From NCBI GenBank assembly GCA_022842725.1, contig JALHOZ010000021.1, positions 1 through 64,000 on the forward strand: a DNA stretch of 64,000 nucleotides, written 5' to 3'. This document shows positions 322-37,904 of the stretch, in pieces. The notes below the pieces were generated by a model. That model had not been told where the DNA came from. It saw only the letters and a list, made by a program, of their open reading frames with translations, and ran no database searches. The position numbers and the translations under genes are program-made. Positions within the stretch are counted from its first letter, which is position 1; every line of letters starts with the position of its first letter. The stretch comes from Saprospiraceae bacterium. Its GTDB lineage: Bacteria; Bacteroidota; Bacteroidia; Chitinophagales; Saprospiraceae.

Positions 322-2100
322 ATGTTATCAATACGAAATATAGCCATCATAGCCCACGTCGACCACGGAAAAACAACGCTGGTTGATAAAATCATTCACG
401 AATGTAAGGCGATGGATCAAAGAAAAGACACCGGCGAACTTATACTCGACAACAACGATTTGGAAAGAGAAAGAGGAATCACCATTTTATCCAAAAACGT
501 TTCGGTACGATATAAAGATGTCAAAATCAATATCATCGACACACCAGGTCACGCTGACTTCGGTGGTGAGGTAGAAAGGGTGTTGAATCTGGCAGATGGT
601 GTTTTGTTGCTCGTAGATGCTTTTGAAGGCCCGATGCCACAAACGCGTTTTGTACTCAACAAAGCAGTAGAAATCGGATTAAAACCCATTGTTGTCATCA
701 ATAAAGTAGATAAAGAAAATTGCCGTCCGCTTGATGTTCAAAGTGATGTTTTTGACCTTATGTTTAACCTTGGAGCTACTGAAGACCAATTGGACTTTGT
801 TACTCTTTTTGGTTCAAGCCGTGATGGGTGGATGAGTTTTGATCCTGAAATCAGGACAAAAGATGTTCAACCTTTGCTACAGGCGGTACTTGACGTCATT
901 CCTGAAGCGCCTTATCAGGAAGGACCTATGCAGATGAGCATCACCTCTCTTGACTACAATGTTTTTCAGGGAAGGTTATCAATAGGCCGTGTCGTAAGAG
1001 GAAATATCAAAGAAAATACGGACTACTTCATCTGTAAAAAAGATGGTTCTATGAAAAAAGTCCGTATCAAAGAATTATATGTATTTGAAGGTTTGGGAAA
1101 AGTAAAAGTCCCTACCGTTCGTTCCGGAGACCTTTGTGCCGTGGTAGGTGTGGAAGACTTTGAAATCGGAGACTCGTTTGTGGATATGGAAAATCCTGAA
1201 GCATTGCCAAGAGTAGCGGTGGACGAACCAACCATGAGCATGTTGTTTACCATCAATACTTCTCCGTTTTTCGGAAAAGAAGGTAAGTTTGTTACTTCAA
1301 GACACCTGAGAGAACGACTATACAAAGAATTAGAAAAAAACCTGGCTTTGAGAATCGAAGATCAGGATACAGAAGATAAATTTTTGGTATTCGGCCGTGG
1401 AGTCCTTCACTTATCAGTTTTGATAGAAACCATGAGAAGAGAAGGATATGAGTTGCAGGTCGGAAAGCCTGAAGTTTTGATAAAATATGTAGATGGTGCC
1501 AAACATGAGCCGATTGAAACCATGGTGATTGACGTTCCTGAAACTGCAGCAGGTAAAGCTATCGAATTGGTTACCCAAAGAAAAGGTATGCTGAAAGTGA
1601 TGGAACCTAAAGGAGATATCCAACATCTTGAGTTTGAAATCCCTTCACGAGGTATCATAGGATTGAGAAACAATATGCTTACTGCTACCTCAGGTGAAGC
1701 CGTTATGACCCATAGGTTTTTGCAATACGAGCCTTACAAAGGTGACTTACCTACCCGTTTAAAAGGATCTTTGGTTTCCATGGAACAAGGACAGGCATTA
1801 CCTTTTGCCATAGACAGACTACAAGATAGAGGAAAGTTTTTTATTGATCCGGGTGAACAGGTTTATATCGGACAGGTCATCGGCGAACATTCAAGAGACA
1901 ATGATCTTGAGGTCAACGTAATCAAAGGTAAAAAACTTACCAACATGAGAGCTTCAGGTTCTGATGAAAATATGAAAATAGCACCAAAAATCCAGATGTC
2001 ATTGGAGGAGGCTATGGAATATATTAAAGATGATGAATACCTTGAAGTTACGCCGGTCAACCTGAGACTCCGAAAAATCAACTTTAAGCCTGGAAATTAA
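322..2100 (+). CDS. typA: Translational GTPase TypA/BipA
   Basis: Ribosome-associated GTPase of the EF-G family, involved in ribosome assembly and stress or cold adaptation. All G motifs are visible: G1 AHVDHGKT (11-18), G2 RGITI (51-55), G3 DTPGH (73-77) and G4 NKVD (127-130). These are followed by an EF-Tu domain-2-like barrel, EF-G-like domains III and V (the [10 protein letters not shown] segment near 440) and the BipA-specific C-terminal domain. At 592 residues it has the normal family length. The ATG at 322 gives [17 protein letters not shown], the usual TypA N-terminus. It lies just behind the helicase tail and may be cotranscribed with it. No promoter box was seen in the 21-base gap. 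Confidence 0.97.
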
Positions 2101-2238: not shown

Positions 2239-3438
2239 ATGAATCTTTACAAACAAAACAGTTTTTTTAAAATCATCTTATTGATTACAGGAGCCATTAT
2301 TCTTGTAATCACGCTACTGTATTCCAATTACCTGGCAACCAAACTCAAAGAAAACGAACAAAAAAATATTTATATTTTTAAGGAGGCTTTGAAAGAAATG
2401 TCAAGCATCCAGGAATCTCTGTTTCTGGCAGAAAGCGGCAATGATCCGGACGCGCAGTTTGATCTCAACAGAGACATAACCTTACTCGACACCATCATCA
2501 GGTCATTTCCACTACCCATCATCTTTGAAGATGAAAGCGGCATGCTCGAAGGTCAAAACTTCGAAGAAGAAAAAAATACTGATCAGAAGTTTTTACGTGC
2601 GAAAAGAGAAGCTTTTATCAAAACAGGTCAGGATCCGCTCATAGGAACCGGATATGCCGCCAAAATTTATTATTTTAACTCTCCGCTAAACGATCATATA
2701 AAGTTTTTTCCGGTGGTACAGGTACTATTGATCAGTAGTTTTGTCGGCTTCGGATATTATCTTTTTAATGTTTCCCGACGTGCTGAACAAAATCAGGTAT
2801 GGGCCGGAATGGCAAAAGAAACCGCCCATCAATTAGGCACTCCCATCAGTGCCATCATGGGTTGGGTAGAATATCTTAAAGAAATTTTTAAAGAAACGCC
2901 CGACCAAAATTATATTGTTGAAGAATTAAAAAAAGATGTGGATCGGTTGGAACTTGTCGCGGACAGATTTTCCAAAATCGGCTCAAAACCCGTACTTGAA
3001 TCCTGTAATCTTTATGAAGAATTACTTGAAGTAAAAAATTACATACAAGCAAGGTCAGCCAAAAAAATAAGTTTTGAAATTATTCATCCCGATGAAGTCA
3101 TTTTGGTCAATATCAACAAACACTTATTTGCCTGGGTCGTTGAAAATCTAATGCGCAACAGTCTGGACGCAATGGAAGGAAAAGGAAAAATCTGGATAGA
3201 AGTAACGGACAGCGAACCTTATGTTTCCATTGATGTCAATGATACCGGTCAGGGCATTCCTAATAACAGATTCAAATCTGTATTCAAACCCGGATATTCC
3301 ACTAAAAAAAGAGGTTGGGGACTTGGTCTTTCATTGGCTAAAAGAATTATCGAAGAATACCACAAAGGTAAAATTTACGTAAAATCTTCAAAACCCCGGG
3401 AGAAAACAACTTTTACCATCAAATTGCACAAAAATTGA
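2239..3438 (+). CDS. Membrane sensor histidine kinase
   Basis: Two-component sensor kinase. There is a transmembrane helix at about 10-32, an extracytoplasmic domain of ~125 residues, a second helix at about 157-176 (PVVQVLLISSFVGFGYYLF), then the kinase core. The phosphoacceptor is H197 in AKETAHQLGTPISA. The ATPase domain shows an N box (ENLMRNSLDAMEG), G1 (DTGQGIP) and F/G2 (KPGYSTKKRGWGLGLSLAKRI). The H-box is the ETAHQLGTP variant common in Bacteroidota. No response regulator is adjacent, so its partner is elsewhere. The M14 peptidase gene starts 6 bases after the stop, which suggests an operon. The ligand cannot be inferred. Confidence 0.9.
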   Translation: MNLYKQNSFFKIILLITGAIILVITLLYSNYLATKLKENEQKNIYIFKEALKEMSSIQESLFLAESGNDPDAQFDLNRDITLLDTIIRSFPLPIIFEDESGMLEGQNFEEEKNTDQKFLRAKREAFIKTGQDPLIGTGYAAKIYYFNSPLNDHIKFFPVVQVLLISSFVGFGYYLFNVSRRAEQNQVWAGMAKETAHQLGTPISAIMGWVEYLKEIFKETPDQNYIVEELKKDVDRLELVADRFSKIGSKPVLESCNLYEELLEVKNYIQARSAKKISFEIIHPDEVILVNINKHLFAWVVENLMRNSLDAMEGKGKIWIEVTDSEPYVSIDVNDTGQGIPNNRFKSVFKPGYSTKKRGWGLGLSLAKRIIEEYHKGKIYVKSSKPREKTTFTIKLHKN

Positions 3439-3444
3439 TCTTGT

Positions 3445-5199
3445 ATGCGCAAAATCGGGTTTATTGTCGCGTTTTATTTTTTATTTTCATGGCTGTTTGC
3501 CCAAAAACCACAAGTTATGTCGTTTGACCTGACCACCCATTTTGAAAAAAACAACAATTACACACCGACATATCAGGAAATCATTGATTTTTACAACACG
3601 ATTTCCCAAAAATCCGGGTTTGTTCAGGTGACCGCATTTGGCAATACCGATAGTGGATTTCCTTTACATGAAATTGTGCTTTCAAAACATGGTTTTGACC
3701 CCAAACAAATCAAATCAGCCAACCTGCCGGTATTACTCATCAATAATGGAATTCATCCCGGCGAACCCTGCGGCATCGATGCTTCCATGATTTTTACACG
3801 AAATATCCTTCAGGCAGGAATGTTGGATTCTGTTTTGGATAAAATGGTTATTGTCATTATTCCGGTATACAATATCGGTGGATGTCTCAACAGAAGCGGC
3901 ACCAGCAGGGCAAATCAACTAGGACCTGAATCCTATGGTTTCAGAGGCAATGCCAAAAACTACGATTTAAACAGGGATTTTATCAAAGCAGATGCATCCA
4001 ATACCCGAAGTTTTTATACCGTTTTTAAAAAATGGGATCCGGATATTTTTGTAGACACCCATACATCCAATGGGGCAGATTACCAATACACCATGACCCT
4101 GATTGCCACCCAAAGTGATAAAGCAGGTCCTGTAGGAGGTAAATTTTTGGAAGAAGATATACTACCCTTTTTGTATACAAAAATGAATGAAAAAAAATAT
4201 GAAATGATACCATATGTATATCCTTACAAAAAAGGAATACCCGATTATGGAATTCGTTCATTTTTGGACTACCCCAGATATTCATCCGGATATGCATCAC
4301 TGCATCACACCTGGTCATTTATGCCTGAAGCCCATATGCTCAAACCTTACAGGGACAGAGTGTATAGCACGCTCGCCTTTTTGGAAACTGTTGCCGATTT
4401 TATATCAAAAAATCCTCAAAAAATAAAGTTGGTCAGAAGTCTTTGGAAAAAGGAAAGCAGGGATAAATTGTCGTTTCCATTAGATTACACTTTAGATGAA
4501 ACAAAAACAGACAGCCTTTCTTTTCATGGTTATGAAGCGGCCTACAAACCAAGTTTGATATCCGGTAAAGACAGGTTGTATTATGATCGGAATAAACCAT
4601 TTACCAAAAACATTCCTTATTATTCAAATTATATCCCTTCTTTGACGGTGACCAAGCCCAAAGCTTATATCATACCGCAGGGATATAAAGAAATTATCGA
4701 AAGACTTGAAGAAAACGCAGTTGTTGTGACCAGAATGGAAAACAATACCGTTTTGAAAGTAGAAAAATACAGGATCACCGATTACAAAACAAGTAAAACA
4801 CCTTATGAAGGCCGTTTTCCTCACAGTGATGTCAAAACCGAAATATTTACAACGGAACAGGCATTTTTTGCCGGTGATTTTATCGTCGAAACGGATCAGG
4901 AAAACGTCAGATATATTATCGAAACACTCGAACCTCAGGCACCGGACAGTTATTTTGCCTGGAATTTTTTCGATGCCATATTGGCACAAAAAGAATATTT
5001 TTCAGCCTATGTATTTGAGGATCTGGCTGTTGAAATTCTGGCAAAAAACCCCGAATTAAAACAAAAACTGGAAGATAAAAAAAGTAAGGAACCGGCTTTT
5101 GCTGATGATGCCTATGCCCAACTTGAATTTGTGTATAAAAACTCACCTTATTATGAACCCAATCATAAAGTCTACCCTATCGCCCGCCTGAATCCCTGA
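3445..5199 (+). CDS. Secreted M14-family zinc carboxypeptidase
   Basis: The signal peptide covers residues 1-20 (ends LFAQ). Zinc-ligand pattern of the M14 family: HPGE (H104, E107) and DTH (H206), with the substrate-binding NYDLNRDF segment at 172-179. The N-terminal half is therefore a carboxypeptidase-like domain; the C-terminal ~250 residues form an additional domain typical of the larger Bacteroidota M14 proteins. The likely role is periplasmic or extracellular peptide trimming. No T9SS sorting domain is seen. It is 6 bases behind the sensor kinase and shares its promoter. Substrate specificity cannot be read from the sequence. Confidence 0.85.
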   Translation: MRKIGFIVAFYFLFSWLFAQKPQVMSFDLTTHFEKNNNYTPTYQEIIDFYNTISQKSGFVQVTAFGNTDSGFPLHEIVLSKHGFDPKQIKSANLPVLLINNGIHPGEPCGIDASMIFTRNILQAGMLDSVLDKMVIVIIPVYNIGGCLNRSGTSRANQLGPESYGFRGNAKNYDLNRDFIKADASNTRSFYTVFKKWDPDIFVDTHTSNGADYQYTMTLIATQSDKAGPVGGKFLEEDILPFLYTKMNEKKYEMIPYVYPYKKGIPDYGIRSFLDYPRYSSGYASLHHTWSFMPEAHMLKPYRDRVYSTLAFLETVADFISKNPQKIKLVRSLWKKESRDKLSFPLDYTLDETKTDSLSFHGYEAAYKPSLISGKDRLYYDRNKPFTKNIPYYSNYIPSLTVTKPKAYIIPQGYKEIIERLEENAVVVTRMENNTVLKVEKYRITDYKTSKTPYEGRFPHSDVKTEIFTTEQAFFAGDFIVETDQENVRYIIETLEPQAPDSYFAWNFFDAILAQKEYFSAYVFEDLAVEILAKNPELKQKLEDKKSKEPAFADDAYAQLEFVYKNSPYYEPNHKVYPIARLNP

Positions 5200-19376: not shown

Positions 19377-22300
19377 TTAATAATTTTCGATTCTGTAAAA
19401 CCTTCTGTTTATCACTTTGCCGTCAAACAAGATTTGCAAAGTATACATTCCCTGTGAAACATCCGTCAATAAAATTTTCTGATTTCCGGAATGCAGAATA
19501 CCTTGTTTTACTTCCCTACCCTGGCTGTCATACAGGCGGAAAGGTACATTTTCAGTTCCGGCCGGAAGTTCCACATTGATGTCATACATCGTAGGATTCG
19601 GATAAATCAAAAATTCTGTTCCCGGGTCAACTACTGAAGCATTTTCAGGTAGTTCGAGCAATCCGTTTGCTATTTTGTACCCCAGATTAAAGCTAAGTCC
19701 CGGATTCAAAACATCAACAAAAATCAACCGGGAAGTACCCTCTCCTCTTTGATTATTTATCTGACTGTCCATACTTTCGTTCATCATAATAAATGATTTA
19801 CCCTCCAAAGCCGGAATTTTAACATAATACTGACCAGGGTCCAGTTTATCCAGTTTAAAGTAACCGGTAACATCTGTTAAGGTAGATTTGACAAAAATAT
19901 TCTGTTGATTAAACAATAGAACGACGGTATTTTCCAGTACCACATCTGCCGAAGTAAACTCAAAATCGCCGTTTGCATCCTCCCATACATAACCTGAAAC
20001 AAACGTCGCAGGGCTGAAATACATACCTCCGTTTTTGAAAATCATGGAAGGAGAACTATTTTCATTAATCAGATCAGATCTTCCATCCGTATTGATATCA
20101 TTACAAATCAGTAATGAATGAACCGCTCTTTTGGTGATTCTATAGTTGGGTTTTGGCTCCACTTTGACATAACAATTACCACTATCTGACATAGTATGTG
20201 CATACATTCCCAGGTGATTGGTCATACGTTCTCCGAGGATATTTCCCTGATCATCGACCAGAGTCACTTTTATATTCGAAATGACCTGTTCTTCAGCAGC
20301 TTTCATACCATCTTTGTTGACATCATCCCAAATGATACCCATGACGACTCTGTTCTGTGATGAAAACATACCGGCATCTACATCGAGAAATACGGAACCG
20401 TGGGCCAGCGATATTAAAGGTGTTGCACCTGTATTATCGACGTCACTATCAGTAGCTGACGAATTCCCGTTATAAGGAACGGTAAACTCAAAACCTTCTT
20501 TTAATTCAAAATGCAGATAATACAATCTTGATCTCAGATTATTAAATTTGTACTTACCTTCACTATTGGTTCTGATTGTATCGACCAACTGACCATTGCT
20601 GAGGAATAAAGAAACTTTTACGCCTTCAATGCCGGGTTCGCCTTCATCCTGATTACCATTTTTATTGAGGTCATTCCACACAAAATCACCAATACAAGCC
20701 GGCAGATAAGCCGCACCATCGACATTGAGTATTTGTTGTCCTGACATAATGGTAAAAACATCTGTTGTACCTCTGCCAAAAGTATTAACTATATCAGAAT
20801 CCGAATCTTCACTTCCTGTATTGGAAGGAGATAGCAGATATTCGTCAGGAATGACAAATTTTACATAATAATTTCCCGGACGGACATTATTAAATATATA
20901 AGCTCCGACAAAACTGTTTCCTCCCAGGCCACCGGTTTTTGTAAAGGCAAAAAGATTTCCGGTTTCAGTATATAATTCTACCCTGATATCCGCGATTCCC
21001 GGTTCGTTTTCAGCAAAAATGCCATTGCCGTTAAGATCCAGCCAAACCCTGGAACCGATGACTCCTCCTCTGATGAGTCCGGCATCCAGATTGTTATAAT
21101 TACCGGCATTGATAAAATCCCTATTGGTGATCCGTCCCTGAAGGTCGGCTTTACTGTTGATATTATCCTGTCCTACATTGGACAAAGCAAAAATATATCC
21201 GGGTATGGGCTCGAATAAAATCCCGTAATTTCCGGCCGCCAGATTATCAAAAACATAATTTCCCGTTTGATTTGTGGTCGTTGTCCTTTTAATCTGACCA
21301 TTTTTATCCAACAAACTTACAGAGATATTGGCCAAACCCGGCTCTCCCGGATCCTGTAATCCATTATTATTAACATCTTCCCAGACAAAATCGCCTAAAG
21401 AAATTTTTGGTGCATATCCCAGGTCTATGTTAAAAAGACTATCACCCGGAAATAAAGCAATCACGCGGGAAGTACCCGAGCCAAACTCATTGGTTATTTC
21501 ACTGTCGACTTCCGGATTCTGGCCTGTATACAGTACAAAAACACGATTTTCCACATCCGGAACAGACAGGTAATACGAACCGAAAAACAAACCTTCAAAT
21601 GAATATCTGCCAAGTTCGTCGGTAAACGTCAAACCTGCTTCCTGACCATCCAATGTCCAGAGTCTCACTTCGACACCTTCGAGCAGGATATCTGAACTTT
21701 CGCGAATTTCATTTGCGTTGGCATCCTGCCAGACCACACCATTGATTTCGCCCAATGCATTTTCATCAATGATGTAACCTGCATCCATATCTGTAAGGTC
21801 AGTTTGAAAATCCAGGACCAAAGTATCAGTTGTACCTGACCCAAAAGCACCTGTGACATCACTGTTGATCAAAAGATTGTCCGTAATATGATTGGTAAAC
21901 AACAGATTTTTGGGCAATCCGAATCTTATATAATAATCTCCCGGAAACAATCTGTCAAATTGGTAATAACCGGAATTAAATGTTCCGGGTCTGATATTGG
22001 TCATCACAGAATCCAGTATTTGGTTTGACAAATTGTAGAGATATACCGTAATACCGTTTATTCCGTTTTCATTGGCATCCTGCAACCCGTTTTCATTTGT
22101 GTCCAACCAAACAAAATCACCTATTGATGACTTTCGGACGTAACCGGCGTTGAGGCTTAGCAATCTTTCGCCTTCCAAAACAGTGACCAGGATGGTTCCT
22201 CCCGGAAGATCCTGTACATCATTGTCCACTTCCGGATCATTGCCTTGTCGGTATTTGGTAAACGTCAGACTGTCATAAACCGGAAAAGTTATTCGATACA

Positions 22301-25300
22301 CATCAGCCGGTACATTGTCAAAAAGATACCTTCCTGTTGAATCCGTTTTTACTTGTTGTATGGTATCTCCACTCAGATTTACCAAAAGAACGTCAACATT
22401 CGCATAGATTGGTTCATTTGGTTCAAATATTCCGTCAGCGTCTGCATCTCTCCAGACCAATCCGCCCAATTCTGTTCTTTTGGTGACCAATCCCAGGTCG
22501 ATATCCAAACTTTCTTCTCCTGAAATGAGGTTAAATGGTAAAGTGGTCAGGGTATCACCTGTTTTGAAAAAATCCGAATTTATGGTTTCGCCGGATTCCT
22601 TATACAAAGTCAAAACGGTACTATCCGGAATGGTTGCACGCAGGACATAAGAGCCTGGTACAATATTTTCGAAAGCATAAAAACCTGTAGCATCCGTTGT
22701 GATCTGATCAATTTCTGTTTGAGAAGGCATTTCCAATAAAGAGATGGTAACACCCTCCTGACCGGATTCGCCGGCATCCTGAAGTCCATTTTCGTTGGTA
22801 TCGAACCACACAAAATCTCCGATTCTCGCGGTTCTGAAAGCTCCTGCATCGATATCAGATTTTGTTTCACCGGCTGTCAAATCAAAAGCCATAACCATGC
22901 CTGTTGTTTGTTCCGCTTTGGAATCATTCAATCCATTACCCGCATTGGTTTTCGTAAAAAACCAACCTTGTGGCAATTCGAAAGTAACAGTGTATGTTCC
23001 TGCCCTCAAATCAGTGAAGTAGTAAAATCCGTCTACGTTGGTGGTTGTATTTTTATTGATTTGTTGTCCTCCTGAAGTCATTCCGTCCAAAAAAACAGAA
23101 ATTTCCGGTATTCCATATTCATCCAAATCCTGTATTCCGTTGGCATTGTTGTCCTCCCATACAAAATCTCCGATCATCCCCCGGCTTATTTCTGTGTATC
23201 CGGCGTCTATGTCGTCCCGGTTTGCTCCACTGATAAGAAACAGGTTTTCGACCCTGTTGTTTTCATTCATATCATTGTCAAAAGAAGAATCTCCAACCTG
23301 AAACAATGTAGCAGAAAGATCTGCAACGCCGGGAAACTGAATGGTATATTCTCCCGGTTTGAGGTCTTCAAACCTGTAAAATCCTTCACTGGAAATCACG
23401 GTCCTGTTGACCTGCTGACCTCCTGCTGAACCAAAAAGCTGAATCTCGAGCCCATCCATTCCTTGTTCGTCAGCATCCTGAAGACCGTTTCCGTTTTGGT
23501 CCATCCACACAAAATCACCTACAGAGGCAAATCTGTAAAGTGCAAAATCGATATCATTGATGGTCAAGCCACTTTCAAGGGTCAGGCCGGAAACAAACGT
23601 TGTCAGCGACTGATAAGTATCCGGCAGTAAAACAGAAATATTGTAATCACCCGGAGGCAGACCATCAAAAATGTACTGACCGTTCTGATCAGAAAATACT
23701 GAAATTGATATCTGATCTCCGGCATTGGTTGTACCAATGAGATTAAATTCTACATTGGGCATTCTGCTATCATTAAAACCGAATATGCCGTCACAATTTT
23801 TATCTTCCCAAACCATTCCTCTGATGGCGCCCGGCAGATAAAGCCCGGCATCGATGGTTTGATTGTTTTCTCCTGAAACCAAATCAAAAGTATGGCTTTC
23901 AAACATAACATCAAAATCATTGTCAACGGTGTCATCATTTCCCTGATTGGCCGGACCGGCATTATATTCTCTGGTTTGGTCCAGTCTGACGGTATAATTT
24001 CCAGGATTCAGGTTTTCGAAAAGATATTGACCGTTATTATCTGAGGATGTGATTTTTAAAACCGCCGTCCCAAAAATATCTGTTCCCGATAAGGAGACAT
24101 CTATACCAATGATTCCCGGTTCGCCGGATTCAAATAAACCGTTTCCGTTCAGGTCTTCCCAAATGAGATCTCCTAATGAGGCGTATGCATAGGTAGCGAC
24201 ATCCATATGTCCGGAATTTTGGCCACTACAAACAGATATTTGATCAATCAGACCGTCAGAGCTGTTATTATCTCTGGTTGTATCCTGATCCAATTTTTGA
24301 GGACTGAACCCAAAACCTGTTGTATTTTCTGTCTGAACCTGATAGATTCCCGGGACGAGCTGACCGAAAGAATAATTTCCAAAAGTATCTGTAACTGTTG
24401 ATTGGATGACCTGATTTCCAAAAACATCCACTCCTTCAAGGGTAACAGAAATATTAAAAATCCCCGATTCTCCGGCATCCTCAAAACTGTTGACATTGGT
24501 ATCATTCCATACGGTGCCTGACACAGAACCATAACGGTATACGCCGGCGTGAAGTGAATTTAGAATATTTCCACCAAGAACGGTTATATTTATAATTTCA
24601 AAATCGGAAACTATTTTGTTTGAAAGAGAAGATGAATCCGGTTTTTGGGTGACAAAATATTCATCTGAACACTCAAAGGATAAGGTATATGTTCCCGGTT
24701 TAACATCATCAAAAGAATAAATACCGTTTCCATCTGAAACAACAGAATCAACAACAGATTCGCCACAATTTGTCATCCCGGACATAAAGATGCGGATATT
24801 ATCCAATCCGGTGTCCGTGTCCTGTAAGTAGCCATCTGCCTTTAGGTCTTCAAAAACCTTTCCAGACAAGGTGGCAAATTGCACAAAACCGGCATCAATG
24901 GTATCCGTCTGTGAACCTGCTGTAAAAGCGTAAACAGGTGTTTGTCCGTTTGCGGAAATATTGCTGTTGGTCAAAGGATTGTTTGACAAACAAGTGGCAA
25001 AAAATTCATTTGGAAGGTCAAAATCAAGCAGATAGTTTCCCGGCCCAACATCAGAAAATGTGTATTTTCCGGTGGCATCAGAAAATGTTGTTTGCATGAT
25101 ATTCTGGTTACCATCGATAAGTTTTACTTCTACCTGAGCCAATCCTGGTTCGCCGAAATCCTGCACACCGTTATAGTTGACGTCATGCCAGACAAAATCT
25201 CCGATTTCAACTGCGGGGATAAAACCAAAATCAACATTGGTTACGGTGGTGCCATTTAATAAAGAAACGGCGTTGGTTGATCCCGGACCAAATACATTGG

Positions 25301-26456
25301 TAATGTCACTATTAATTTGTTCATTTACCGAAATTTTTTTTTGTAAAAATATTTTTCCGGAAGGTTTCTCAGCAACCAAATAATATTGCCCCGTTGGAAC
25401 CTGATCAAAAATATATTTTCCGGCAGGATTGGTTGTCGTTTGGCTGACCAACTGCCCCTGAGTCGTTCTTAAACTAATATTCACACCACCAAGAAGCGGA
25501 TCGGAGACGTCTTTCCGATCATTGAGATTGACATCTTCCCACGCCACTCCCTGAATGGAATTGATTGCACAATCGATGTAATTGAAATGACGGCAACATT
25601 GATCCAGTGTATTTCCATTTTGGTCATACACCTCGGCGCAAATGGTATAAGTACCAAATGTTGCGTGTGGTTTTGCCATTATATTGATGGTATTTTGGTC
25701 TTCTCTTGACGTAACAGCAAAATTTTCCGGGACCGTCCAGTGGTATGACTTTCCCCTGTTAAATTTGTCAACAAAAAAGACGACACAAGTATCTTTACAA
25801 AAAGAAACCAACGGTACATAATGAACAACAATCTCGATATGATCAATCATGGCCGTAACTTCCTGAACGGAAGCATTACGCACCTGAATTTCCAGGGTAA
25901 AATCTTTGGCGTTCATCCAGGCGGAATTCCAATCGATGCCCCAGGTATCTGTTTTACCACCGTAGCACCATTTTTTATCAGAGCCGTCAGCATTGGCGGA
26001 CCAAGGTTTTTGTAGCGGAATCGAGTTTGCTTTATTTTGAGAAATGACAGATTGGTTATTTGCCAATAAAGTCACCGACATTTCTGATATTGAGGACGGC
26101 CTGTTGCTTTGGCCTTTGACAAAAACTTCAATTCCTTTGATGGTAGCGCCGGCAGGGATATTGGCAGCAAAATCCGAAAAATGTAGGTGACTCCCTTGTT
26201 TCAGTGAAGTCAGCTTCAGTGATGCCTTTTGATTGTCTTCATCTTTTGCAAGAAGCGGATTCAACCATTTGGAATAATATGAGAAATTTGATTGAGCTAT
26301 TTTTCCGGGACGCAGCGTTGATTGTGTCAACCTTGGTTCGACAGAAACACCTACCGGGCAGTAGGAACCCGATTGAGCAACCAAAAAATGCGTGGATAAT
26401 AATAGCACCAATAAGGGCCACACTCTCTGAAAAGAGCCCGATGATAAAAGTTTCAT
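19377..26456 (-). CDS. Giant T9SS-exported surface protein with about 17 SdrD_B repeats
   Basis: 2359 residues. The signal peptide is about 1-28 (LVLLLSTHFLVAQ). An N-terminal beta-rich region (29-215) with strands such as GATIKGIEVFVKG is followed by an Ig-like part to about 300. Then come about 17 SdrD_B/Cna-B-like repeats of roughly 110-130 residues, each opening with a GDFVWxDxNxNGxQDxxExG-type motif (Asp/Asn ladder, a likely Ca2+ site) and containing GxYxFxxLxPGxY. The last ~80 residues (FLIYPNPTMYDINVELP ... GMYTLQILFDGKVINRRFY) are a type A T9SS sorting domain. The protein is therefore probably secreted, attached to the surface, and acts as a long stalk or adhesin. No enzymatic domain was seen. 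It has its own promoter box and terminator. Confidence 0.93.
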   Translation of the reverse strand: MKLLSSGSFQRVWPLLVLLLSTHFLVAQSGSYCPVGVSVEPRLTQSTLRPGKIAQSNFSYYSKWLNPLLAKDEDNQKASLKLTSLKQGSHLHFSDFAANIPAGATIKGIEVFVKGQSNRPSSISEMSVTLLANNQSVISQNKANSIPLQKPWSANADGSDKKWCYGGKTDTWGIDWNSAWMNAKDFTLEIQVRNASVQEVTAMIDHIEIVVHYVPLVSFCKDTCVVFFVDKFNRGKSYHWTVPENFAVTSREDQNTINIMAKPHATFGTYTICAEVYDQNGNTLDQCCRHFNYIDCAINSIQGVAWEDVNLNDRKDVSDPLLGGVNISLRTTQGQLVSQTTTNPAGKYIFDQVPTGQYYLVAEKPSGKIFLQKKISVNEQINSDITNVFGPGSTNAVSLLNGTTVTNVDFGFIPAVEIGDFVWHDVNYNGVQDFGEPGLAQVEVKLIDGNQNIMQTTFSDATGKYTFSDVGPGNYLLDFDLPNEFFATCLSNNPLTNSNISANGQTPVYAFTAGSQTDTIDAGFVQFATLSGKVFEDLKADGYLQDTDTGLDNIRIFMSGMTNCGESVVDSVVSDGNGIYSFDDVKPGTYTLSFECSDEYFVTQKPDSSSLSNKIVSDFEIINITVLGGNILNSLHAGVYRYGSVSGTVWNDTNVNSFEDAGESGIFNISVTLEGVDVFGNQVIQSTVTDTFGNYSFGQLVPGIYQVQTENTTGFGFSPQKLDQDTTRDNNSSDGLIDQISVCSGQNSGHMDVATYAYASLGDLIWEDLNGNGLFESGEPGIIGIDVSLSGTDIFGTAVLKITSSDNNGQYLFENLNPGNYTVRLDQTREYNAGPANQGNDDTVDNDFDVMFESHTFDLVSGENNQTIDAGLYLPGAIRGMVWEDKNCDGIFGFNDSRMPNVEFNLIGTTNAGDQISISVFSDQNGQYIFDGLPPGDYNISVLLPDTYQSLTTFVSGLTLESGLTINDIDFALYRFASVGDFVWMDQNGNGLQDADEQGMDGLEIQLFGSAGGQQVNRTVISSEGFYRFEDLKPGEYTIQFPGVADLSATLFQVGDSSFDNDMNENNRVENLFLISGANRDDIDAGYTEISRGMIGDFVWEDNNANGIQDLDEYGIPEISVFLDGMTSGGQQINKNTTTNVDGFYYFTDLRAGTYTVTFELPQGWFFTKTNAGNGLNDSKAEQTTGMVMAFDLTAGETKSDIDAGAFRTARIGDFVWFDTNENGLQDAGESGQEGVTISLLEMPSQTEIDQITTDATGFYAFENIVPGSYVLRATIPDSTVLTLYKESGETINSDFFKTGDTLTTLPFNLISGEESLDIDLGLVTKRTELGGLVWRDADADGIFEPNEPIYANVDVLLVNLSGDTIQQVKTDSTGRYLFDNVPADVYRITFPVYDSLTFTKYRQGNDPEVDNDVQDLPGGTILVTVLEGERLLSLNAGYVRKSSIGDFVWLDTNENGLQDANENGINGITVYLYNLSNQILDSVMTNIRPGTFNSGYYQFDRLFPGDYYIRFGLPKNLLFTNHITDNLLINSDVTGAFGSGTTDTLVLDFQTDLTDMDAGYIIDENALGEINGVVWQDANANEIRESSDILLEGVEVRLWTLDGQEAGLTFTDELGRYSFEGLFFGSYYLSVPDVENRVFVLYTGQNPEVDSEITNEFGSGTSRVIALFPGDSLFNIDLGYAPKISLGDFVWEDVNNNGLQDPGEPGLANISVSLLDKNGQIKRTTTTNQTGNYVFDNLAAGNYGILFEPIPGYIFALSNVGQDNINSKADLQGRITNRDFINAGNYNNLDAGLIRGGVIGSRVWLDLNGNGIFAENEPGIADIRVELYTETGNLFAFTKTGGLGGNSFVGAYIFNNVRPGNYYVKFVIPDEYLLSPSNTGSEDSDSDIVNTFGRGTTDVFTIMSGQQILNVDGAAYLPACIGDFVWNDLNKNGNQDEGEPGIEGVKVSLFLSNGQLVDTIRTNSEGKYKFNNLRSRLYYLHFELKEGFEFTVPYNGNSSATDSDVDNTGATPLISLAHGSVFLDVDAGMFSSQNRVVMGIIWDDVNKDGMKAAEEQVISNIKVTLVDDQGNILGERMTNHLGMYAHTMSDSGNCYVKVEPKPNYRITKRAVHSLLICNDINTDGRSDLINENSSPSMIFKNGGMYFSPATFVSGYVWEDANGDFEFTSADVVLENTVVLLFNQQNIFVKSTLTDVTGYFKLDKLDPGQYYVKIPALEGKSFIMMNESMDSQINNQRGEGTSRLIFVDVLNPGLSFNLGYKIANGLLELPENASVVDPGTEFLIYPNPTMYDINVELPAGTENVPFRLYDSQGREVKQGILHSGNQKILLTDVSQGMYTLQILFDGKVINRRFYRIENY

Positions 26457-32567: not shown

Positions 32568-33647
32568 TTATTCTATAAAAATCATTTTTTTCGTTGCTGT
32601 AAAACTTCCTGCAGAAATCTGATAATAAAAGACTCCTGACTGACGAACAACAGACTTGTCAATATTTACATGATGGGTTCCTTTGTCATACCATTTTGAC
32701 GAACTGTATACAACTTTACCGGCTACATCCATAATTTTCAGATCAGCCTGCTCATCTGAAGGAAGGGTAAACGATATAGTTGTTTGGTTTGTAAACGGAT
32801 TGGGAACATTTTGTCTCAACACAAAAACATTGGCTGATGATTCACTTTCATTTTTACTTCTATATTCTACCTTACAACTTTTCAGGCTGCTGTCATAAGC
32901 TGCTGCAGTGGTAATCTGAGAAGATGCAACAAAAATCTGATCTGTGTCAACCTCTTTTTTGGCTGTCAATACCCAGTAAAAAGCTACCTGGTCATTATCC
33001 AAGTTTTCCGGTTGATTTGAATTCCAGCTGGTTGTCAAAATACCTGGTTTGTTGTCAAAAACACCGACATGAGCATCTGTAATTTCAATCTCACCGGATT
33101 CCACACCAGCAAAACTAAATACTTCAGGGTCAAAATGTGTTGTCATCTGGAAGCCTGACAAATCTTTGAAACCTTCAGCATAAACCGGAATTCTGACTGT
33201 TTCACCTTTGGACGCTGTCACTCTTTCAGTCAAAAACGAAAGGGTTTTGTTTGTTCTGGCTTCTGTCGGGTCACCGTCGACATTCAGGACAATGGAATTA
33301 TTTACATCACCAATTTTTACGGCAACAAAATTCTGATTGTTTTTATTTTGCTGGAAATTAGGATACAACATTTTTTCTGTCATCGGCCAAGGGTGATTCG
33401 AATCCGCAAAAGACAACGATGCCGGAATAAATTTCCACGATTTTTGTTGATTCGGAAATTCCGTTACGGTACCCAAAATCACCTTTCTGAGGCTAACCAG
33501 GTCAAGTGAATTGATCTTTTCGTTGGCATCAATATCACCGGCAATCACCAAATAAGGATTGTTTAATGATTGTACACCAAGAATATGTCTTTGAATCAAT
33601 ACGATATCCAGGGTTGATAATCCTTCATCCAAATCTTCATTAGACAC
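32568..33647 (-). CDS. C-terminal fragment of giant T9SS protein: dockerin, cohesin-like and sorting domains
   Basis: Continues the frame of the 33711-37904 gene after an in-frame TAA; 21 sense codons separate that stop from the GTG at 33647, the first available start codon here. Visible parts: dockerin-type duplicated motif (LSTLDIVLIQRHILG and INSLDLVSLRKVILG, about 11-60), a cohesin-like beta domain (about 125-260, starting VTASKGETVRIPVYAEGF), and a T9SS type A sorting domain (NVFVLRQNVPNPFTNQTTIS to the end, about 275-359). It has no signal peptide, so alone it could not be exported. It is probably a non-translated remnant, unless the stop is read through or is a sequencing error. Confidence 0.8.
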   Translation of the reverse strand: MSNEDLDEGLSTLDIVLIQRHILGVQSLNNPYLVIAGDIDANEKINSLDLVSLRKVILGTVTEFPNQQKSWKFIPASLSFADSNHPWPMTEKMLYPNFQQNKNNQNFVAVKIGDVNNSIVLNVDGDPTEARTNKTLSFLTERVTASKGETVRIPVYAEGFKDLSGFQMTTHFDPEVFSFAGVESGEIEITDAHVGVFDNKPGILTTSWNSNQPENLDNDQVAFYWVLTAKKEVDTDQIFVASSQITTAAAYDSSLKSCKVEYRSKNESESSANVFVLRQNVPNPFTNQTTISFTLPSDEQADLKIMDVAGKVVYSSSKWYDKGTHHVNIDKSVVRQSGVFYYQISAGSFTATKKMIFIE

Positions 33648-33710
33648 TGCCGAAAGTTGATAGTCAAAATTCTTTTTGACATTGGTAAACTGGAAGGTTC
33701 CTGTCTGACC

Positions 33711-36700
33711 TTATAATATACTCTTCGGATATTCCGGTTGGTTACTTTCCAAAATCAGGTTGGCTCCTTTTAATGGTCTTGCATCTGCCAGTGTAATTCT
33801 ACCCGAAATGGTACCTACCAATCCGTTTGAATTTTCACAAACATTGGAATTGTCCTGAAGCACCAGGGTAATAGTACAAAAATCACTGTTGCCTTCAAGG
33901 TCTGTCACCGACATATCCAGTAATAATTCTTCCGAATCACCATTAGAAATATCATTACAAGAAAACAATCTTCCAGACGAATTGGTAGCCGGTATCCATT
34001 TCTGAGCGACACCATCCACATATTCGGCAAATGTAGCCGGCAATCCATTACCTTTAAAATAATGTTCTGTATTCAAAGAATCTCTTACCGGAGTGGCACC
34101 GTCAAAGGTAAACCAAAGATCGGCATAATCTGTACAGTTGTCCGTACTTCCCAGATCGTAATCGATGGCCCAGATTTCTACCTGACCATTTGAATTCATT
34201 ACCGCAGTGGTAATGGAGCTCAAACAATAAGGTGTTGGTTTTTTGCCATCTGCTACGGTCAACAAATATTGGCAAACCGACACGTTTCCACATTTGTCTT
34301 CTGCTGTCCAACGAACTTTGTGCGTTCCGTCAGGCAATATCCTTTTGTAATTGTTGGTATTTCCTGAAAAATTGATCGAACCGTCATTATACAAATCAAT
34401 AGTATAGGTATAATTGATCAACTCAGAAGGTGTACACAAATCATAAGCTGTAATACTTTCAGAAACTTCACCTTCACAATTTCCATATGAAAAGACCGTT
34501 CTGTCCGCACAACTCGCCTCAATGACAGGTGCTTCGGTATTATGCATTTTAATAATTTGAACGTGTTCAAACCAACCTTCTCCGTACACAGGATTTTGTT
34601 CATTGTATGTGCACCAATCCAGTACGGTCCAGGTTCTTAATATTTTTTCGCAGGCACCATCGACAAAACTGAATACCTGATCTTTGTAGTGCATAGCAAT
34701 CAAACTACATTCATCGTCATAAACTTCTGGCCTTGCATTGATCTTAGGAAGGTTTTCAGGCAATAATGCTGCTCCGCACTTGTCGGTTTCATAATTTTCC
34801 GGCCATCTCAGGTCATTGATATCAAATCCGTCAAACGGGTCATAATCAAACAATGTGATGGTTTGGATACAATCGTCTTTTAATCCCTGGAAATCTTCAG
34901 CTGTCCAGGTTCTGTTGATGTAACCCGTACCACATTGTGACAAATAAGGATCGTCGACCTTTACAACTTCTTTGACACTACAATTGTCCACTGCAGATGG
35001 TTCTCCCGTGATATCAAGATCCTCGTAATCAGCCTGACAATCCAGGGTAATATTCGGCGGACATTTGATATAAGGATTCAATTTATCTTGTACGGTTGCA
35101 CGAACCATGCAGGTATTCATATTGCCATGAACATCAGTAACTTTCATTTCCACCATAATTTCCTGACCTATTTCGGCACAACAAAATATAGCTTGTTTTG
35201 CAAATAACGTATCGCCTGCAAGACAAGAATTAACCGTTTTTCGTACTTCAATTTCACGAATGGCACAGTTATCATGGCTTCCGTCGTCAAATGAAGATGC
35301 AAAAACAATGGCTTGTTGATTGGCAGCTATAGAGACCACAGTATTCAGGTGGCAAACTGCTGTCGGCAGTATATTGTCGCGAACAGTCACACGGGTACAA
35401 CATTCGCTGATGTTATCACATTCATCCTTAACTTCCCATTTGATAAAGTTATGACCTATTGGAAGATTGGAAACCGTTCTGGTATTTTGATTGGCAAATT
35501 CTTTGGAGTAACTTGCTTCCTGACAAGGATAATCATCTGAAAAAGGTCCGAAAGCATGAGAAAGATTGTATGTAAAATTATCGGAACAATCAAATAATAT
35601 CTCCGGTCTGTCAAATACTCTTGTGGCAAAACAGTCATATTGATTGGTAGAAATGGTCATATCTGCAGGACATTCCATATCCGGTCCTTCATTGTCAACC
35701 ACCTTGATGATCTGATTATGTTCCAGTACAAGACTGTTACACCATTCGATTACCTTATGTGTTCTTATAATTTTGTACGAATTTTTACAAATCGGCAGGA
35801 TGACATCTGTATAAGGCACAATCTGCACATTATCACAAAAGTCACCTGTCACTGTACCGGTCACATCAAGACCAGGTATTACTGTACCGTAGTCAGCACA
35901 AGAGAGAGCGGGTTCGTCTACATCATCATAATTCGGTGGAAAAATAATGGCTGACAATCCGTTTCGGTATACATATATAGTCTGACAACAAGTATTTGCA
36001 TGATTATCATATTCGTCAAAACCATCCCAACATCTTCTGATGACTCTCACATAAGGACCTTCACAACCCTCTTCAAGGATTTCGTCCTGGTATGTGATGA
36101 TTGCATTGGTGCAATAATCGCCGTCTTCAATCCAGTAAGACTGGTTGCCCAGGTCTATCCAGTTGACGTTATATGAATATGGAAAAGGAATTTCTGCTCC
36201 AACCTGGTCAAAACTCAAAACAACTTCGTTGATGGTTCCGCCTTCTCCGCTAGAAACGTCATGAATGGTTACCGTCCAATCTCCTGTCGGGTCGATACCA
36301 TCAAATATACTTAATGATGTCAAAGGTCTAAAATCACCTGAAACAGCCGGAGCTACCATATTACACATAGACAAAAGAGCTGCATTCGTTTGAGCTGCAT
36401 CATCAAAAATATCCACGAGTAAGTCATCACCTGTACAAGGACCGGCATTACTTCCCGGACCAACAAATAAAGTTACAGACATTCCGTTGGGAGCCTGAAC
36501 AGTGGCAACAAGGTCAGAAACCCTGGTATGTGAAACATTTAAATGTACCCCTACATCAGAGATAGAAAAACCACTAAAATTGTGTACCGGAATAACATAT
36601 GACCTGGAATTTGGTGTCCCAGGAAACAAAATATTTCCTTCTATAAAAGCAGGCAGGTTGATTCGGGAAGACATCGGAGAACCCGGAGTCAAATCTCCCA

Positions 36701-37904
36701 CACAGGTCGTATACACGTCATTGCAGGTAAACACCGGACCGAATTTGTCTTCTACCAGAATATGTCCCCAACAATAATTTCCGTCAGGTGCCGTAACTTT
36801 AACCCTGAGGGTTTGACCTATTTGAGCTTTTCCGACTGTATTTCCAAGGCTGAAACCCTGAAGCGAAGTAATGTCTACTTCATAATCATCATAACAACCA
36901 TAAAAGTCTCCTTTTAAAATATATTCTGCACCTACTTCTGCACTACATTCCAAACCTAAAGTGACATTTACCTGATCATTACAAGCTATGGTCGTGGTAG
37001 ATGGTTCGTATGGAAATACACTGATTTGAAACTGGCAATCAAGGATTTCGTCTCCTTCCCAATCAAAAATCTGGTAATCCATCAAATGAGTACCTACAGG
37101 AAAAGCGTCACCACTTTCATATGGATGTAAACTGTTATTGACAATGATAAATTCTTCGGCAGTACCTAAAACCGAAAGTACTACAGAATTGGCCATAGAG
37201 GCTCCTGACACCAACATTTGAGCCGGTATACAGGTTTCAGAAGAAATGGATGCTTCTCCGGTGGTATTACCGGCGTCATTTCTTCCCATACGGAAAATAC
37301 TAACAAAAGGTGGTGGTGTCACCACTTCCACACTATAGGATTCTCCCGGTGGAATGACAATGTCATCCAATGATGTTGTAAACATCTGCATATTTAAGGT
37401 AGGAACCAATTCACTTTTCGTAAAAATCAAATTATTGGACTGGTCATACACATTTATCGTTACAGACGGACTGTTGGAAGACTGATAAACGCCCATTTCC
37501 AAATCATTCAATACAAAAGGTGTCTGATAGGCATTGGTAAACGTCCTTCTGAACCTCGTCTGACCGATTGGACAAAATATGGTGGCATTCACCAGGTCCG
37601 GATCATTGTTTTGTGTGACCAATTCCTGCGGAGGCGGATTGGAAGAAACGAGATTAAAATCGTAAATGATTTCTCTCGAACATTCTCCCGGATCAGCTTC
37701 AACAGCAATATCACCCGGACAATCTGCCATCATCATGGATGCTGATGCCATTTCCCATGGAAAATAGGCAGAAAGATTTCCCTTCCCGTCCTGAGCCCAT
37801 ACTAAAGGCGTTTCATGATGACGTGTCGATGTTTTGTAAGACGCAAACGTTTGGTTTACTATACCAAAAATCAACAAAAATAAAAGTGTAAAATACTTTT
37901 TCAT
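33711..37904 (-). CDS. Giant secreted HYR/P-domain protein, interrupted by in-frame TAA
   Basis: The signal peptide is 1-21 (LLFLLIFGIVNQTFA). The N-terminal part (60-300) begins DCPGDIAVEADPGECSREI, a HYR-like motif. A proprotein-convertase P domain spans about 425-567 (VIPVHNFSGFSISDVGVHLNV ... GDWTVTIHDVSSGEGG). Several Cys-rich HYR-type beta domains follow (for example DNEGPDMECPADMTI, DKLNPYIKCPPNITL). The reading frame stops at TAA 33711-33713 inside a carboxypeptidase-regulatory-like domain (GRITLADARPLKGANLIL), and the same frame then continues into the fragment 32568-33647. The intact protein would be about 1778 residues. Without the C-terminal sorting domain, the 1397-residue product would reach the periplasm but not be T9SS-sorted. 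Confidence 0.88.
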   Translation of the reverse strand: MKKYFTLLFLLIFGIVNQTFASYKTSTRHHETPLVWAQDGKGNLSAYFPWEMASASMMMADCPGDIAVEADPGECSREIIYDFNLVSSNPPPQELVTQNNDPDLVNATIFCPIGQTRFRRTFTNAYQTPFVLNDLEMGVYQSSNSPSVTINVYDQSNNLIFTKSELVPTLNMQMFTTSLDDIVIPPGESYSVEVVTPPPFVSIFRMGRNDAGNTTGEASISSETCIPAQMLVSGASMANSVVLSVLGTAEEFIIVNNSLHPYESGDAFPVGTHLMDYQIFDWEGDEILDCQFQISVFPYEPSTTTIACNDQVNVTLGLECSAEVGAEYILKGDFYGCYDDYEVDITSLQGFSLGNTVGKAQIGQTLRVKVTAPDGNYCWGHILVEDKFGPVFTCNDVYTTCVGDLTPGSPMSSRINLPAFIEGNILFPGTPNSRSYVIPVHNFSGFSISDVGVHLNVSHTRVSDLVATVQAPNGMSVTLFVGPGSNAGPCTGDDLLVDIFDDAAQTNAALLSMCNMVAPAVSGDFRPLTSLSIFDGIDPTGDWTVTIHDVSSGEGGTINEVVLSFDQVGAEIPFPYSYNVNWIDLGNQSYWIEDGDYCTNAIITYQDEILEEGCEGPYVRVIRRCWDGFDEYDNHANTCCQTIYVYRNGLSAIIFPPNYDDVDEPALSCADYGTVIPGLDVTGTVTGDFCDNVQIVPYTDVILPICKNSYKIIRTHKVIEWCNSLVLEHNQIIKVVDNEGPDMECPADMTISTNQYDCFATRVFDRPEILFDCSDNFTYNLSHAFGPFSDDYPCQEASYSKEFANQNTRTVSNLPIGHNFIKWEVKDECDNISECCTRVTVRDNILPTAVCHLNTVVSIAANQQAIVFASSFDDGSHDNCAIREIEVRKTVNSCLAGDTLFAKQAIFCCAEIGQEIMVEMKVTDVHGNMNTCMVRATVQDKLNPYIKCPPNITLDCQADYEDLDITGEPSAVDNCSVKEVVKVDDPYLSQCGTGYINRTWTAEDFQGLKDDCIQTITLFDYDPFDGFDINDLRWPENYETDKCGAALLPENLPKINARPEVYDDECSLIAMHYKDQVFSFVDGACEKILRTWTVLDWCTYNEQNPVYGEGWFEHVQIIKMHNTEAPVIEASCADRTVFSYGNCEGEVSESITAYDLCTPSELINYTYTIDLYNDGSINFSGNTNNYKRILPDGTHKVRWTAEDKCGNVSVCQYLLTVADGKKPTPYCLSSITTAVMNSNGQVEIWAIDYDLGSTDNCTDYADLWFTFDGATPVRDSLNTEHYFKGNGLPATFAEYVDGVAQKWIPATNSSGRLFSCNDISNGDSEELLLDMSVTDLEGNSDFCTITLVLQDNSNVCENSNGLVGTISGRITLADARPLKGANLILESNQPEYPKSIL

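Follow-up and report, generated by a model that had tools for sequence, protein, structure and literature searches.

The uncultured Saprospiraceae bacterium represented by the window (that is, the whole stretch of 64,000 nucleotides that was analysed) carries a gene for a large secreted surface protein with an in-frame stop codon. On the minus strand, a single frame of 1,778 codons extends from position 37904 to position 32571 and contains exactly one internal stop, a TAA at positions 33711-33713 (codon 1398); neither a second stop nor a frameshift was found elsewhere in that frame. The upstream ORF (33711..37904, minus strand) runs from an ATG to the premature TAA and encodes 1,397 amino acids, and the continuation (32568..33710, minus strand) comprises, in the same unshifted frame, 380 codons and a terminal stop at 32568-32570. 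The first listed start codon in the downstream half is a GTG at 33647, and the first ATG lies 109 codons in.

Domain searches identified, ahead of the stop, an HYR domain (PF02494, 48.2 bits; 37017..37127) and a proprotein convertase P-domain (P_proprotein, PF01483, 23.5 bits against a cut-off of 21; 36213..36560), and, beyond the stop, a dockerin type I domain (Dockerin_1, PF00404, 24.2 bits against a cut-off of 22.9; 33477..33617), a cohesin domain (PF00963, 37.6 bits; 32922..33224) and a T9SS C-terminal sorting domain (Por_Secre_tail; 32580..32804), the last of these matched both by PF18962 (37.4 bits) and by TIGR04183 (39.2 bits, likewise above its cut-off). All five lie on the minus strand and score above their Pfam cut-offs, and together with the ORF lengths they bear out the sequence-only reading, which had described a frame interrupted by this TAA and continuing unshifted through dockerin, cohesin-like and T9SS domains. 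That reading had also placed the TAA within a carboxypeptidase-regulatory-like domain; a CarboxypepD_reg match (PF13620; 33648..33812, minus strand) does span it, covering residues 30-84 of the scanned fragment with the stop at residue 63, though its 24.3 bits fall below the cut-off of 32.3, as do the scores of the three orthologues that were scanned (24.8, 18.6 and 17.6 bits). An NCBIfam scan confirmed the downstream T9SS tail and returned no match for the upstream half. The C-terminal sorting domain expected of a T9SS type A substrate is therefore present, but only past the stop, while the start of the upstream ORF (MKKYFTLLFLLIFGIVNQTFA) resembles, as judged by eye, a signal peptide; by the same judgement the downstream half lacks a signal-peptide-like start.

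The distribution of intact homologues was established by searching 198 genomes, the window's own included, with the 643 residues obtained by reading through the stop. Some match was found in 188 of the 198, because proteins of this type have many paralogues, and among the matches listed (150 rows, counted by hand) only the window's own contains a stop. Within the same genus, seven of nine genomes (G002-G007 and G009) carry a collinear orthologue whose single open frame measures 1,667-1,857 amino acids from stop to stop (the N-terminus of the G002 copy being cut by a contig end) and whose identity to the window gene in the upstream half is 43-48%. In G008, a genome that is 65% complete, only a paralogue was found, and in G001 the C-terminal frame crosses the stop position, the gene being broken farther upstream by another lesion. 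A contig search with the orthologue alignment returned 28 loci, of which eight correspond to G001-G007 and G009, five others (L092-L095 and L100) were inspected, and the remaining 15 were left out; L093, L094 and L095, from more distant Saprospiraceae, are open across the stop position, L092 ends ahead of it, and L100 resembles paralogues. The same search with the downstream half alone found no relative. In the alignment, the column of the stop holds a sense codon, with no gap, in all eight same-genus rows that cover it, so that the stop is absent from each of the 11 covering orthologues (eight from the same genus and three more distant), as is expected of a nonsense pseudogene.

The homologues mostly lie in differing gene neighbourhoods, and orthology consequently rests mainly on full-length collinearity, which takes in an N-terminal part that is missing from most paralogue matches. 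A partial exception is a purE/purK-like pair located approximately 1.2 kb upstream of the gene, and on its strand, in G003 and G009, with a matching pair on the gene's strand approximately 14 kb upstream in the window. Orthologues in Saprospiraceae metagenome-assembled genomes, such as Bacteroidetes bacterium OLB9 (LNBW01000049.1) and Saprospiraceae bacterium UBA7687 (DLGT01000047.1), display the same full-length domain order as the window gene, but in one open frame, whereas the window copy is interrupted by the internal TAA.

Given collinear orthologues on both sides of the TAA and an ungapped alignment at its position, the split frame is, on these comparisons, not a product of chance. That it might instead represent two natural genes, the second initiated at an internal start, is scarcely credible: while the GTG at 33647 formally opens an ORF of 359 amino acids, the orthologues are single frames across the stop position and hence are not pairs of genes, the stop falls within the weak CarboxypepD_reg match, and the downstream ORF lacks the signal-peptide-like start that, by eye, is found in 22 of 25 other short-frame T9SS tails. 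None of the 11 covering orthologues has a separate second gene with its own signal peptide, and none ends at the stop ahead of a separate downstream gene, which is the arrangement that the sequence-only reading had named as contradicting a split gene. The single-frame orthologues and the missing signal-peptide start thus led to rejection of two natural genes, and for annotation the locus is best described as a single gene interrupted by a premature stop (or an intact gene with a base-call error), rather than as two genes. A promoter and terminator scan was not usable, yielding 26 promoter-like sites where 18.8 were expected and six terminator-like sites where 4.3 were expected.

The G001 copy (L053; contig C204, 1577-6735) consists of two overlapping frames with approximately 45 residues missing between them, and its break, near 3616-3667, looks like a frame-shifting deletion, representing either an independent lesion or a misassembly in the same gene. 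Since that copy is broken by a different lesion, the loss of the window gene, or the error in it, is not unique.

Suppression or readthrough of the stop, which would yield a minority of full-length protein, accords with a downstream frame that is intact and not evolving faster, but is very improbable in light of several additional observations. The stop is conserved in none of the 11 orthologues, and TAA terminates 16 of the 20 window ORFs that were checked (one of these being this gene's own end). No UAA-reading anticodon was found in the 32 of the genome's 33 tRNA matches that were read by ARAGORN. The RNA beyond the stop is not unusually structured, its predicted fold being no stronger than those of shuffled sequences (z -0.52, with 53 of 200 shuffles as strong). 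An altered code or a suppressor tRNA was rejected on the same TAA usage and tRNA readings, and stop suppression is disfavoured overall. A related scheme, in which a real TAA is either polymorphic in the population or subject to partial readthrough, with the result that periplasm-kept and surface-shown forms are both made, appears similarly remote. The 33rd tRNA match (contig C7, 43637-43717, 29.5 bits, above the Rfam cut-off; positions 338-418, minus strand, of the segment 43300-44000, L142) lies beside a tRNA-Asp; ARAGORN scanned that stretch without making a call, and the match resembles a degenerate copy of its neighbour, bearing extra bases at the anticodon loop.

The age of the stop was addressed by comparing divergence on its two sides, since in a long-dead gene the portion past the stop would be expected to evolve faster. 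All 28 genome pairs are less identical after the stop than before it, and to nearly the same degree whether or not the window is included: mean identity falls from 46.0 to 38.1% in the seven window-orthologue pairs (ratio 0.83) and from 61.0 to 50.2% in the 21 orthologue-orthologue pairs (ratio 0.82). Relative to the rest of the tree, the window's branch has a length of 0.39 before the stop (and 0.39 in the last 700 columns before it as well) and 0.31 after. Relaxed selection past the stop was accordingly not seen in either the identity or the branch ratios, and a very recent loss of the gene would leave no such signal. Furthermore, the frame offers 699 single-step paths to a stop codon and has taken no second one, which limits neutral divergence since any loss to at most approximately 1.3%, a rough estimate that assumes equal rates. 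The solitary TAA, the lack of any other stop or frameshift, and a tail half that is not evolving faster together imply that the lesion is either recent or not present in the organism at all.

Nonsense pseudogenes are a common form of bacterial gene loss, and the window gene resembles them in having one premature in-frame stop, homology on both sides of it, and a genome that retains many related genes, but differs in showing no wider decay, which points to either a very recent event or a sequencing error. The account that we consider probable, if far from assured, is that a genuine and recent nonsense mutation, in the strain or in the population, interrupts an ordinary gene for a large T9SS-secreted surface protein. 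In its favour are a lone stop in 1,778 codons, open orthologues in 11 of 11 cases, the identity and branch ratios, the presence of both paralogues and the T9SS, and the other lesion in the G001 copy; against it are the lack of visible decay beyond that one stop, and the fact that the residue found at the stop column in most orthologues is not one step from TAA. The claim in the sequence-only reading that one sense-to-stop change is enough is not established, given the latter observation and a window lineage too divergent (43-48% identity upstream) to reveal the former codon.

That the stop is an error of base calling or consensus in a draft assembly (arising, for example, from low coverage or mixed strains), with the real gene intact, is a substantial possibility, to which we nevertheless give a less than even chance. 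As judged from the letters themselves, a wrong base call fits equally well as a real nonsense mutation, and both are ordinary occurrences. The draft genome comprises 87 contigs, the named relatives among the 28 contig-search loci are all metagenome-assembled genomes, and the remainder of the 5.3-kb gene is undamaged, with no faster evolution of its tail half. Against such an error, the assembly contains no duplicate of the stretch that conflicts with it, its eight DNA matches being the window itself and seven short paralogue matches with 66-92% identity; no other break was seen among 20 window ORFs in a scan that did not involve comparison with orthologues; and the change is a substitution in a non-repetitive context, whereas the typical long-read error is an indel. 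The sequence-only reading had offered inactivation, suppression and wrong base calls as explanations, of which the analysis leaves recent inactivation and base-call error as the two serious candidates, suppression being disfavoured by the tRNAs, the TAA usage and the fold.

Passage to the cell surface through the T9SS requires both a signal peptide and a sorting domain, and if the stop is real, neither half of the protein would be expected to reach the surface by that route. Under a genuine nonsense mutation, translation would end at codon 1398. Export of the HYR/P-domain part over the inner membrane would still take place, but without the C-terminal sorting domain this part would not cross the outer membrane via the T9SS, and its probable fate would be retention in the periplasm or degradation; the secreted half would thereby lose its sorting signal, as the sequence-only reading had anticipated for a real stop. 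The downstream part, without a signal-peptide start, would either not be made or not be exported. Loss of the gene would probably be tolerated, because several paralogues of the window gene and no fewer than 150 T9SS-tailed frames are present in the genome. If real, the allele would be a further instance of how readily one protein can be lost from a very large T9SS surface repertoire.

The T9SS machinery is represented in the window's genome by a single SprA match, uninterrupted by stops, that scores 2008 bits (cut-off 200). PMC9304909 reports the system in every one of the five Saprospiraceae genera that it describes, and a literature search found nothing concerning the window gene itself. 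In the 4.6-Mb genome, 150 of 233 candidate T9SS C-terminal sorting domains were scored (83 were left unscored), and all 150 exceeded the cut-off, so that at least that number are present. The window itself encodes a further T9SS-tailed protein of 2,359 amino acids (19377-26456, minus strand), with 17 SdrD_B-like matches and a series of CarboxypepD_reg-like ones.

Among these tails, the 26 with a frame of at most 400 amino acids were inspected, one of them being the window's own. The 22 of the other 25 that have a signal-peptide-like start include four (L118, L132, L136 and L139) in which a same-frame ORF of more than 300 amino acids ends within 100 bases in front; given the tails' own signal-like starts, these ORFs were taken for neighbouring genes. 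The three exceptions are L138, which lies at a contig edge, and two frames with no obvious signal peptide, namely L130 (contig C9, 18200-22300), with a frame of 178 amino acids at 3245-3778 of that segment, and L133 (contig C10, 12400-16400), with a minus-strand frame of 203 amino acids. L130 and L133 could be remnants of other broken genes, which would count against the event in the window being unique.
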